Origin: Pinibacter soli
GTDB lineage: Bacteria; Bacteroidota; Bacteroidia; Chitinophagales; Chitinophagaceae
Reading direction: 5' to 3'
Length of the DNA stretch: 64,000 nucleotides
Assembly (NCBI RefSeq): GCF_029961145.1
Contig: NZ_JASBRG010000003.1
Coordinates: 372,001 to 436,000 of the forward strand
Shown here: in pieces, positions 40,812 to 43,833 of the stretch
How the letters are laid out: every line of letters begins with the position of its first letter
Numbering within the stretch: position 1 is the stretch's first letter
The notes under the pieces: generated by a model
What the model was told of the DNA's origin: nothing
Database searches by the model: none
What the model saw: only the letters and a program-made list of their open reading frames with translations
Program-made: the position numbers and the translations under genes

Positions 40812-40860
40812 CAATGCAAAACGCCAGGCGACCGCGTTAGGCATTAGGCGTTCGGCGTTT
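40812..40860. repeat. CGTTAGGC-word arm
   Basis: Words GCGTTAGGCATTAGGCG match the family at 24750-24831. It lies just upstream of the exporter pair. Confidence 0.65.
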
Positions 40861-40862
40861 CA

Positions 40863-41130
40863 TTATGCTTCTCGCAAGGTAGACGGTTGAGTCAGGGAAA
40901 TATTTTACAAGTATAGAGCTTTTTCAAAGAATGGGTGACGGGAAATGTACAGAGGGTAAATGGGGAGCATAGGCCACAATAATGTCGTTTTTGACAGTTT
41001 TTTGCAGAAAAATCAAGAAAAATTCAAGGTAAAAAAAGCGTTGGGCATTATTTAAAAAATCGATGAAATGCTTTGTGGTAGAGGGTGTTAACATTTTTTT
41101 TTGTGTTTTGCCATAATGAAAACAATCATT
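40863..41130. other. Intergenic stretch upstream of the exporter operon
   Basis: About 270 bases without a convincing gene. A 113-codon frame on the minus strand (40924-41265) covers it, but it also crosses the small RNA candidate and has no recognisable protein features. The exporter operon's promoter should be in this stretch; no consensus copy was found. Confidence 0.4.
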
Positions 41131-41137
41131 AATTGTC

Positions 41138-41168
41138 TTGCACACGCTTAATTGGCACCGTACTTTTG
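41138..41168 (+). promoter_or_regulatory. Promoter of the small RNA candidate
   Basis: TTG at 41138-41140, 20 bases, then TACTTTTG at 41161-41168: full agreement with the Bacteroidota consensus. No protein gene follows on this strand for more than 1000 bases. Confidence 0.7.
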
Positions 41169-41174
41169 ATATAT

Positions 41175-41315
41175 CAAAGCGATGATGATAGAGACGATAG
41201 GATAGAGGGTCACGAAAAACAACAAAATCGCTTTCACAAACAAGATATTTAGAACTCTTTTTCATATGGCAAGCAATCGTTAGAGGCCATCTGTTTCTAC
41301 AGTGTGGCTTTTTTT
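41175..41315 (+). ncRNA. Candidate small RNA, about 140 nt
   Basis: The transcript would start near 41175 at a good promoter and end at an intrinsic terminator (41286-41315). Its first bases (AAAGCGAT, 41176-41183) pair perfectly with ATCGCTTT (41227-41234), enclosing a 43-nt loop, so the 5' part is structured. The terminator hairpin has two short stems (GCCA/TGGC and CTGT/ACAG) and seven T. Only tiny frames exist inside it (the longest from an ATG is seven codons). It does not resemble 6S, SRP, tmRNA or RNase P RNA. It is transcribed opposite to the adjacent genes. Function unknown. Confidence 0.5.
41286..41315 (+). terminator. Intrinsic terminator of the small RNA candidate
   Basis: GCCA, one bulge, CTGT, four-base loop, ACAG, two bases, TGGC and seven T. 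Confidence 0.75.
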
Positions 41316-41397
41316 GTGCCCATAACTTTCCAAAACTTGAATGAAAATATTCTGATCCCTCTTTTGTAGATAATCTGAAACCTCATTGAATATAAAA

Positions 41398-41422
41398 CCC
41401 GGCTTTTGGCCGGGATTTTTTT
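41398..41422. terminator. Bidirectional CCCGGC hairpin
   Basis: CCCGGC, five-base loop, GCCGGG, then ATTTTTTT on the plus strand. On the minus strand it follows the gene at 41487 with a weaker T-run. It probably ends that gene and may be a back-up stop for the plus-strand RNA. Confidence 0.75.
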
Positions 41423-41482
41423 GCTTAATGCTTAACGCCCAACGCAGGGTTTTCCACGTTGAGCGTTAAGCGTTCAGCATTT
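41423..41482. repeat. CTTAACGCCCAACGC inverted repeat
   Basis: GCTTAACGCCCAACGC is mirrored by ACGTTGAGCGTTAAGCG. It belongs to the CGTTAGGC family. Confidence 0.7.
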
Positions 41483-41486
41483 ATCA

Positions 41487-41804
41487 TCAATTGCCCTTCT
41501 GAGCGTCATGTTTCTGATTATAAATCGCTTTGCTGGTTTTGTTTTCCTCGCGGTTCAATTTTGCTTTTTCCTTCTGTGTAACAACTCCATCTGCCTTTGC
41601 TTCTTTTTTATCTGACTGGATTTTCGCTTCACGTTTTTCAAGTCTAGCTGTTTCTTTAGCGTTAAGCTGACCTGAATCGATTCCTCTTGCAATTCTTTCC
41701 TGCTGATTATGCTGGCGTTTGTTTATTTCAGGTGTTTTCGTTTGGGCAAATGTGGCGCTTGTAATTGCGATTGCTGCGGCGAGTGTAACTGCTTTAATTT
41801 TCAT
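41487..41804 (-). CDS. Small secreted, highly charged protein
   Basis: A 105-residue protein: signal peptide (MKIKAVTLAAAIAITSATFAQ), then a mature part that is almost entirely lysine, glutamate, glutamine, asparagine and alanine, likely long helices (KETARLEKREAKIQSDKKEA, and VVTQKEKAKLNREEN). The alternating charged pattern suggests a coiled coil. No domain or cysteine is visible. ATG 41804 starts the signal peptide; the upstream in-frame start 41840 is less likely. It diverges from the DUF4142-type lipoprotein at 42176. Confidence 0.75.
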   Translation of the reverse strand: MKIKAVTLAAAIAITSATFAQTKTPEINKRQHNQQERIARGIDSGQLNAKETARLEKREAKIQSDKKEAKADGVVTQKEKAKLNREENKTSKAIYNQKHDAQKGN

Positions 41805-42175
41805 TGTGTACGGTTTTAAAAATTGTAAATGTGTTTGCATATGAGACGATAAATTTTTTGCCGGGTTTAAATCCGTTAAAAAATATTTCGCTCACGCGGC
41901 GACTAACGTAATCGCCGCCCCGAATGTTGCTTCGGATTTTTTAATGAATGGTTAATGGCAGTTTATAGCTTTATAAAGGTCATTGGCTAAAGCCAACGAT
42001 AATGGATTTGGCACTGGTTATGGAAAGCCAAGAAAGGGAACCTCATAAAAAGCATTCCTCGAAACTCAGGTGTGATGTGGGATATAAGGTGAATTGTTGC
42101 CTTTTTTGCACTTAATAATCCGGGTTGTAAGGGAATGATTCTTTTATCAGATACCGAAGCCAAAAGAGCGTTGTT
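41805..42175. other. Divergent intergenic region with GC hairpin
   Basis: Between the divergent genes lies a hairpin GCGGCGA / TCGCCGC (41896-41918) and a small palindrome TTGGCTAAAGCCAA (about 41982-41995). No T-run follows either. I see no other gene here; promoters for both neighbours should be inside. Confidence 0.5.
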
Positions 42176-42808
42176 ATGAAAATCTTATATCTATGCATTG
42201 TGGGGTGTGGACTTTTCGTCGCATGCGGAAATCACAACCCGAGCGGTGACGTTACCAAAACGCAAAAAGAAAAACAGAAACTGATCGGCGATACTTCTGA
42301 TCTTTCGAAAGAAGGAAGCGAATCAACCACTAGCGGAGTTACGGGTACTCAACCTAACAACAATAATGACTCAGGCAAAGGAAACAGCAACAATAGCGCA
42401 GCTTTTTATAAGGCAGCCATTGAAGGAAATTTAGCAGAAATAAAAATGGCAAAACTCGCACTAATCAAAAGTCCCAATGCTGATATAAAACAAGTTGCCA
42501 ATCATCTCATAAAGGATCATAGCAGTTTTTTGATGCAGCTTAAAGTAATTGCGGATAGTGCTGCAAAATCGGATACGACTATCTCAACAGATGCCTCTAC
42601 ATCTATCAGGGATCTTTCTTCAGCGTCGGGAAATGTTTTTGACAACAAATGGCTGGATGCGATGATAGCCGGTCACGACAAGACAATCGGCTTATATGAG
42701 TCTGCTTTGCCAACGGCTAGTGATAAAATGAAAAATTTTCTGGAAGCAACACTTCCTCTCGTAAAGGATCATAAAAAGATGTTGCTAAACATTAAACAAA
42801 AAAGCTAG
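42176..42808 (+). CDS. DUF4142-domain lipoprotein
   Basis: A 210-residue lipoprotein. The signal peptide ends in LFVACG with lipid-bearing Cys17, followed by a low-complexity linker rich in Asn, Ser, Gly and Asp. The DUF4142 ferritin-like helical domain fills residues 75-205: AAFYKAAIEGNLAEIKMAKL, VANHLIKDHSSFLMQLK, and DAMIAGHDKTIGLYE. Spaced His and Glu residues (KDHSS, AGHDK, KDHKK) hint at a metal site. Family members are often stress-induced in Bacteroidota and Proteobacteria. The next gene starts three bases after the stop, so the two form an operon. Confidence 0.9.
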   Translation: MKILYLCIVGCGLFVACGNHNPSGDVTKTQKEKQKLIGDTSDLSKEGSESTTSGVTGTQPNNNNDSGKGNSNNSAAFYKAAIEGNLAEIKMAKLALIKSPNADIKQVANHLIKDHSSFLMQLKVIADSAAKSDTTISTDASTSIRDLSSASGNVFDNKWLDAMIAGHDKTIGLYESALPTASDKMKNFLEATLPLVKDHKKMLLNIKQKS

Positions 42809-43499: not shown

Positions 43500-43559
43500 G
43501 GACATCATACCTCTTCCAATCTGCAAACTCGCTGATTTTCATTTTTCTAATAACGAAAA

Positions 43560-43590
43560 TTTGGTTTTTTCAAAAAAGCGCCTAGTTTTG
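43560..43590 (+). promoter_or_regulatory. Promoter of the small Thr/Lys lipoprotein gene
   Basis: TTTG at 43560-43563, 19 bases, TAGTTTTG at 43583-43590: an exact consensus promoter, with the ATG 34 bases downstream of the -7 element. Confidence 0.85.
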
Positions 43591-43623
43591 CCCCCGGTTT
43601 TAACAATCCTTAAAAAAATAACA

Positions 43624-43833
43624 ATGAAAAAAATTTTCGCTATCCTTGCTATCGCAGGTGCTATGACCGCTTGTAACAACGCTGCTGAGAAAACTGAATC
43701 TAAAGGTGACTCAACTACCACAACTACAACTGAAACTACAGTTAAAGCTGATACTTCAGTTAAAGCTTCTGGCGACACTACAGTTAAAGCTGACACTACT
43801 GTGAAAAAAGTTGATTCTACTGTAAAAAAATAA
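43624..43833 (+). CDS. Small threonine/lysine-repeat lipoprotein
   Basis: A 69-residue protein. MKKIFAILAIAGAMTAC is a lipoprotein signal with Cys17 as anchor. The mature part has almost no hydrophobic residues and repeats the unit TTVKADT / TSVKASGD / TTVKKVDS. It looks like an extended, flexible surface or periplasmic tether. A strong promoter and a terminator surround it, so it is probably well expressed. ATG 43624 was chosen; the longer frame from 43465 crosses the promoter. No known family. Confidence 0.8.
   Translation: MKKIFAILAIAGAMTACNNAAEKTESKGDSTTTTTTETTVKADTSVKASGDTTVKADTTVKKVDSTVKK

Follow-up and report, generated by a model that had tools for sequence, protein, structure and literature searches.

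The question raised by this locus is whether a stretch of plus strand carrying promoter, stem and terminator signals encodes a stand-alone small RNA and, if it does, what such an RNA might do. The window, i.e., the whole stretch of DNA analysed, comprises 64,000 nt of Pinibacter soli (NZ_JASBRG010000003.1, assembly GCF_029961145.1, positions 372,001–436,000 of the forward strand). An earlier note on this DNA had proposed a consensus promoter, a perfect 8-base stem at the predicted 5′ end and a T7-tailed hairpin, on a strand where no protein gene exists for over 1000 bases. On reading the sequence, all three elements are present where they had been placed (Table 1), and the plus strand contains no open reading frame of at least 60 amino acids between 40850 and 42175, the next convincing gene on that strand (DUF4142) starting at 42176.

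Table 1. Features of the predicted small RNA gene, in window coordinates
Feature	Position	Strand	Basis or remark
Dyad element TGTTTTGCCATAATGAAAACA, a presumed activator or regulator site preceding the promoter	41104–41124	+	Aligns with the family consensus TTTTGGCATGATAAAA; kept in congeners
−33 element TTG of a Bacteroidota-type promoter	41138–41140	+	Sequence reading; 20 bases to the −7 element
−7 element TACTTTTG	41161–41168	+	Identical in two congeners
Predicted small RNA, about 142 nt	41174–41315	+	Ends estimated from the promoter (5′) and the terminator (3′)
5′ arm of the 5′-end stem, AAAGCGAT	41176–41183	+	Six of eight pairs kept in congeners
Loop of the 5′ domain, purine-rich, without GCAATCG motif	41184–41226	+	Sequence reading
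3′ arm of the 5′-end stem, ATCGCTTT	41227–41234	+	Sequence reading and congener alignment
Conserved single-stranded element CUUUUUCAUAUGGCAAGCAAUCGUUAGAGG, proposed pairing region	41257–41286	+	Family comparison; complementary to two tandem transporter-leader sites
Terminator hairpin, loop UUCU, seven T at 41309–41315	41283–41315	+	Stem covaries over 150 distinct hairpins

Taken singly, the promoter, the stem and the terminator are each within chance expectation. The strict promoter pattern occurs four times in the 64-kb window, compared to a mean of 4.8 in 30 shuffles, and the predicted RNA is no more stable than its shuffled versions (z −0.01; 88 of the 200 shuffles are at least as stable). 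The perfect 8-base stem of the earlier note is present in the sequence, but is absent from the minimum-energy fold (−25.5, versus −22.7 for the best fold containing it). The arrangement stands above chance because of the comparison with relatives described below, not because of any single feature.

Three other features lie close to the predicted RNA. A second hairpin, CCCGGCTTTTGGCCGGG, at 41398–41421, has T runs on both sides and is kept in both congeners; it resembles a two-way terminator, which would serve the minus-strand gene at 41487–41807. Degenerate repeats, with units like AACGCCTAATGC, occupy the intergenic positions 40820–40870 and 41425–41485 and differ in length in the congeners. 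A minus-strand open reading frame that runs across the RNA (40924–41265) was set aside as a gene, its start codon being located in the antisense of the conserved element and the conservation appearing to follow the RNA.

The 211-nt region is 89% and 88% identical in two congeners. In the three-way alignment, the sequence from the −7 box to the 5′ end and the start of the stem is identical, as is the 3′ module at 41249–41315, and the loop differs. Conservation of sequence and of stems in relatives had been named by the earlier note as a check on the small RNA, and the RNA passes it. The sequence is conserved in the two congeners and, for the 3′ module, far beyond them; as to the stems, the terminator hairpin covaries, and the 5′ stem keeps six of its eight pairs in the two congeners, the two outer/inner ones being lost with no compensatory change. 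With a covariance model built from 36 copies, the 3′ module is detected in 131 of 195 genomes of the Chitinophagaceae, a family of soil and water bacteria, and in 70 of 101 genera (64 genomes are without a match), with 1 to 10 copies per genome, and BLAST with positions 41236–41315 finds it in 132 of the 195. Nine of 296 genomes in a sample of the phylum match, eight of them of Chitinophagaceae; the match in the ninth genome (G390) is weak and without the core. A pattern scan of named genomes returned at least 116 stretches, and most of the 80 titles listed belong to Chitinophagaceae, others being labelled as Bacteroidetes, Sphingobacteriales, Flavobacterium or Pedobacter MAGs; since similarity to the element was what selected these loci, its invariance among them partly reflects that choice.

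It is the 3′ half of the RNA (41257–41315), in which the unpaired element runs into the covarying terminator hairpin, that marks a multicopy RNA family. The earlier note was right about the RNA, but the finding is larger than it had supposed, as that note had missed the paralogues, the 3′ element rather than the 5′ stem as the conserved part, and the complementary target sites.

The shared 3′ module comprises a U-rich stretch, the conserved element CAUAUGGCAAGCAAUCGUUAGAGG and the terminator hairpin. Over 150 distinct hairpins, stem positions 1–3 and 6–8 pair in 100, 99, 85, 96, 94 and 95% of cases, using several pair types, whereas 77, 85, 52, 79, 45 and 89% would be expected from the column composition; pairing is less frequent at positions 4 and 5 (46 and 62%), and the loop is itself selected, as the hairpins were found with a loop pattern. 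The 5′ domains of the family copies do not align in sequence. A perfect 5′-end stem of at least 7 bp is found in 41 of 89 non-redundant copies (17.4 in shuffles, the largest of 30 shuffles giving 25), and the word GCAATCG in the 5′ domain of 37 of the 89, compared to 0.75 in shuffles and none for the reversed word. The window copy has the stem and lacks the extra GCAATCG motif.

Upstream of the 5′ domain, the pattern TTG/A-N18-22-TANNTTTN is present in 99 of the 186 copies with enough upstream sequence for the promoter test (195 distinct copies in 205 loci), compared to 7.5% of 2468 control windows, and its strict form in 27 copies (14.5%), compared to 0.8% of the controls. When all 195 copies are sorted more crudely, 95 have a promoter, 4 follow the end of an open reading frame, 3 follow tRNA genes, 21 are too near a contig end, and the other 72 show neither a promoter nor a reading-frame end. 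In 71 of 86 non-redundant copies, the dyad consensus precedes the −33 TTG by 31–33 nt, and at least 11 of its 16 letters are matched in 67 of the 86, versus 5 of 83 control windows. The profile of this dyad matches its own reverse complement best in register, with a correlation of 0.47, all others being at most 0.29. Across 400 kb of the P. soli genome, the dyad-bearing promoter pattern has three occurrences, one of them at an RNA copy; the window has a single one, at the locus described here.

In the P. soli genome, the covariance model matches 8 times at E < 0.001, a number that rises to 11 when E up to 1 is allowed. By the 15-mer core, eight modules are counted, seven of them exact and one with one mismatch (L031–L037 and L039); a further model match, L038, is without the core. 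The window contains a single module match, at 41263. The promoter arrangement is seen by eye in five of the eight copies (L031–L035, with L032 being the window copy), while L036 has no good dyad that we could see and L037 follows a coding sequence. The syntenic copy, beside the gene for a TPR-like protein, is L035, and the window copy is a dispersed paralogue. In L039 (1444–1577, plus strand), the 3′ module lies directly after a tRNA-Cys gene, so that the element and the hairpin would form the end of the tRNA transcript. We note that modules L037 and L047 are preceded by reading frames rich in alternating Ala, Asp, Ser, Lys and Val codons, and that a similar frame, with KADTTVKK repeats, occupies 43516–43833 of the window with no module near it.

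A gene for a protein of about 451 amino acids adjoins the RNA in 101 fetched loci (78 distinct, 77 of them with the core by the pattern used), every listed copy being divergent from it and the distance from the 3′ module to the start codon of the neighbour being mostly 190 to 300 nt. As the loci were fetched through the RNA, this count is silent on the gene where it occurs without the RNA. The same gene is found in 44 among the 116 named-genome matches listed. The dyad lies between the RNA and the neighbour gene in 92 of 100 loci, in 86 of them at 50–59 nt from the protein start (redundant loci included), a position suggestive of linked-gene regulation. The neighbour gives a full-length profile match (residues 6–450, E 1.2e-34) to NCBIfam NF058569, the family of BT2802/RusR, with scores for two neighbours of 120.2 and 103.8 bits against a cut-off of 550; at 120 bits versus 550, it is a distant relative of BT2802 and not a member by that model. 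BT2802/RusR, described in the relevant part of PMC12596196 as a ribose-utilisation regulator, is linked to a sugar locus, whereas the Chitinophagaceae neighbour is linked to the RNA gene instead. The predicted structure of the neighbour is a TPR superhelix (mean pLDDT 85.2) with TPR proteins as its best Foldseek matches, and the structure and fold search recognised TPR proteins only, with no DNA-binding domain among them. That this protein acts on the dyad is plausible, at slightly less than even odds.

A candidate for what the conserved element pairs with is located in the same genome. The exact 15-mer TAACGATTGCTTGCC occurs nine times there, seven times in the RNA modules and twice, at neighbouring sites, within the leader of a gene for a formate/nitrite transporter (Pfam Form_Nir_trans, E 4.6e-72). 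The leader carries two tandem complements of the core, 22 nt apart and 18–60 nt before the start codon, and such tandem sites are present in all three congeners, P. soli included, where the duplexes between the 30-nt element and the leader are predicted at −33.7, −33.3 and −31.7 kcal/mol. In P. soli, complementarity extends over 20 nt at one site and 19 nt at the other, and in G109 over 20 and 18 nt; in G009, a 19-nt match at one site is accompanied by a mismatch in the other. Among 13 transporter loci from the same and other genera, strong sites exist only in these three congeners; nine of the 13 leaders have no good site, with the gene start picked by a rough rule, and the leader of G055 has a weaker one (−20.8, in the top 3.3% of 929 start regions). 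With transporter sites in a single genus and a weak one in G055, this target does not explain why the element is conserved across the family. That complementary sites in tandem have a general role was rejected, the tandem pattern being found in 2 of the 195 family genomes, both of the same genus as P. soli. The perfect-target patterns ACGATTGCTTGCCATATH and DTAACGATTGCTTGCC occur in 18 and 25 of the 195 genomes; the loci inspected (for DTAACGATTGCTTGCC, the 30 fetched loci minus L388) hold only RNA modules, 5′-domain motifs, transporter leaders and one unassigned match (L245).

A network of targets was assessed with 263 ortholog triplets of the three congeners, all from one collinear 400-kb region that had been selected for containing the transporter and copies of the RNA; leaving out the transporter gives 262. 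Start-region duplexes of −18 kcal/mol or lower in all three species are predicted for 11 of the 262 triplets, compared to 4.5 in shuffles (4 of 300 shuffles reach 11), and of −20 or lower for 5, compared to 1.2 (2 of 300 reach it). The excess is weak at −17 (14 versus 9.0, reached by 25 of 300), and at −22 the count is 2 versus 0.29 (10 of 300). Other windows of the same genes give 0, 0, 0, 1, 3 and 3 at −20, versus 6 in the start region with the transporter included; the two windows with 3 matches are both coding, and the reversed element gave 1. Behind the transporter, the highest-ranked genes encode a TonB-dependent receptor, an ECF sigma factor and an alginate-lyase/heparinase-like protein; for 6 of 60 shuffled elements, the best pair is no weaker than that of the gene ranked second. 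The candidate targets other than the transporter are significant only as a set, not singly. Elsewhere in the P. soli genome, two-mismatch complements of the core lie 42 and 43 nt before start codons (L219:1501 and L222:1501), and the 379-aa and 183-aa frames behind them are further possible targets.

The module is not confined to cellular genomes. In viral contigs, the 23-mer is found in 11 stretches and the 19-mer in 30, and the 11 whole viral records have one or two module copies each, with zero for the reversed-pattern control; a named tRNA gene is present in 5 of these 11 loci. In ten viral loci, the modules are near tRNA genes or directly after coding sequence, and no dyad better than 11/16 was seen in these ten. 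Contigs L196, L198, L202 and L205 have the 3′ module beside tRNA genes, L198 twice, around tRNA-Phe, and some phage hairpins that follow the module are without a T run. Isolated phages gave only 24-nt matches at chance level, in Listeria phages. The phage, tRNA and 3′ UTR copies, above all the first two, give a cis or protein-binding role some likelihood.

In agreement with the remark of the earlier note that the unit does not look like a known housekeeping RNA, no Rfam 15 family reaches its gathering score in the window, and in 14 loci of the RNA family nothing does except an SRP RNA beside one copy. The latter is a Bacteroidales small SRP RNA gene (RF04183, 89.5 bits; L391:1175–1282, minus strand) just downstream of the small RNA of that genome, with none in the other 13 loci. 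A sub-threshold match to SorX (22.6 bits, cut-off 46.6) at 41355–41422 lies outside the predicted RNA and was discarded. No report on such an RNA appears in the portions of text returned by our literature search, and the letters of the element match there only in an unrelated plant context. Judged by comparison among genomes, the small-RNA family is very likely real and uncatalogued, and the stand-alone RNA with its own promoter and terminator that had been proposed for the window gains support as a prediction from the same comparative evidence.

In sum, the whole is best explained, with reasonable likelihood, by the window encoding at 41174–41315 (plus strand) a member of a multicopy family of trans-acting, base-pairing small RNAs; action of the family by base pairing is in itself probable. 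The conserved element would pair with mRNA leaders and start regions, with the leader of the formate/nitrite transporter as the clearest candidate target and blocked translation as the likely outcome, and the several paralogues and repeated motifs would raise dose and valency. More tentatively, the TPR-like protein beside the commonest syntenic copy may act on the dyad and so govern the dispersed RNA genes together. A still wider scheme can be drawn, in which a TPR-like regulator and the dyad promoter define a family-wide regulon, the founder RNA lies back to back with the regulator, the motif-repeating dispersed copies are multivalent repressors of transport genes, and phage 3′ modules on their own transcripts mimic or titrate the host RNAs; this is speculative and, taken as a whole, unlikely.

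The element could instead be mainly a protein-binding site, with the RNAs sequestering or recruiting a conserved RNA-binding protein like sponge RNAs and mRNA pairing being secondary. Conservation over 70 genera and phage contigs exceeds what a seed for variable mRNA targets would need, the motif is repeated within single RNAs, and RRM_1 matches number 4, 5 and 5 in the three congeners, none of which gives a match to Hfq. However, the transporter leader bears the complement of the motif and not the motif, which a single-strand RNA-binding protein would not explain, and start regions are enriched for complementarity; we consider a primarily protein-binding role rather unlikely. In another reading, the 3′ module acts in cis on the termination, processing or stability of RNA 3′ ends and happens to be common to small RNAs, some mRNAs, and tRNA and phage transcripts; this, too, leaves the complementary leader sites unexplained. 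Such a role would suit the copies after tRNA-Cys in P. soli, near tRNA genes in phage contigs and directly after open reading frames, as well as the hairpin that always follows in the inspected copies, including phage hairpins without a T run, but 1 to 10 copies per genome are not those of a general terminator, and further copies of the motif are located within 5′ domains, at a distance from the 3′ end, which leaves it improbable.

The multicopy occurrence, the tandem clusters in some genomes (four modules in L011) and the presence in phage contigs might also be expected of a repeated DNA element, either a protein operator or a mobile repeat. This is very improbable in view of the compensatory changes in the hairpin, the fixed order of promoter, 5′ domain, element and terminator, with the orientation always towards the terminator in the copies used, and the window copy, at which no inverted or direct repeat ends were found. 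A mere coincidence of promoter, stem and terminator, with which each feature would be compatible by itself, is refuted by the comparative data, the whole arrangement being both conserved and recurrent, and can practically be dismissed.

Bacteroidota are often without Hfq, and their post-transcriptional control is known from few systems. The base-pairing family proposed here offers a directly testable second system outside gut Bacteroides: its motif is fixed, its promoter can be recognised, a candidate regulator is linked to it, and one of its predicted targets is strong. Its phage copies raise the question whether phages exploit the RNA system. The closest known system in kind, going by its description in the parts of PMC11697453 concerned, is FopS/RbpB, to which the present family is analogous. 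The FopS RNAs of Bacteroides are multicopy (14, mostly intergenic, with one derived from a 3′ UTR), have a canonical Bacteroidota promoter, and pair near start codons, outer-membrane transport genes being among the targets; a phage copy is reported, and the system includes GibS and the RRM protein RbpB (PMC11697453). Like FopS in that account, the family here is paralogous and multicopy (8 core copies in P. soli versus 14), and has a Bacteroidota promoter, phage copies and RRM proteins in the genome. Start-proximal pairing with transport genes is, for this family, a prediction for the formate/nitrite transporter and the TonB-dependent receptor. Unlike FopS, which is given there as approximately 65–70 nt with a seed in the 5′ portion, the RNA here has a predicted length of 142 nt, carries its conserved element at the 3′ end and belongs to a different clade. 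LhrC and Qrr, named in the same source, are likewise paralogous RNAs with a common pairing region, and the resemblance is one in kind only.
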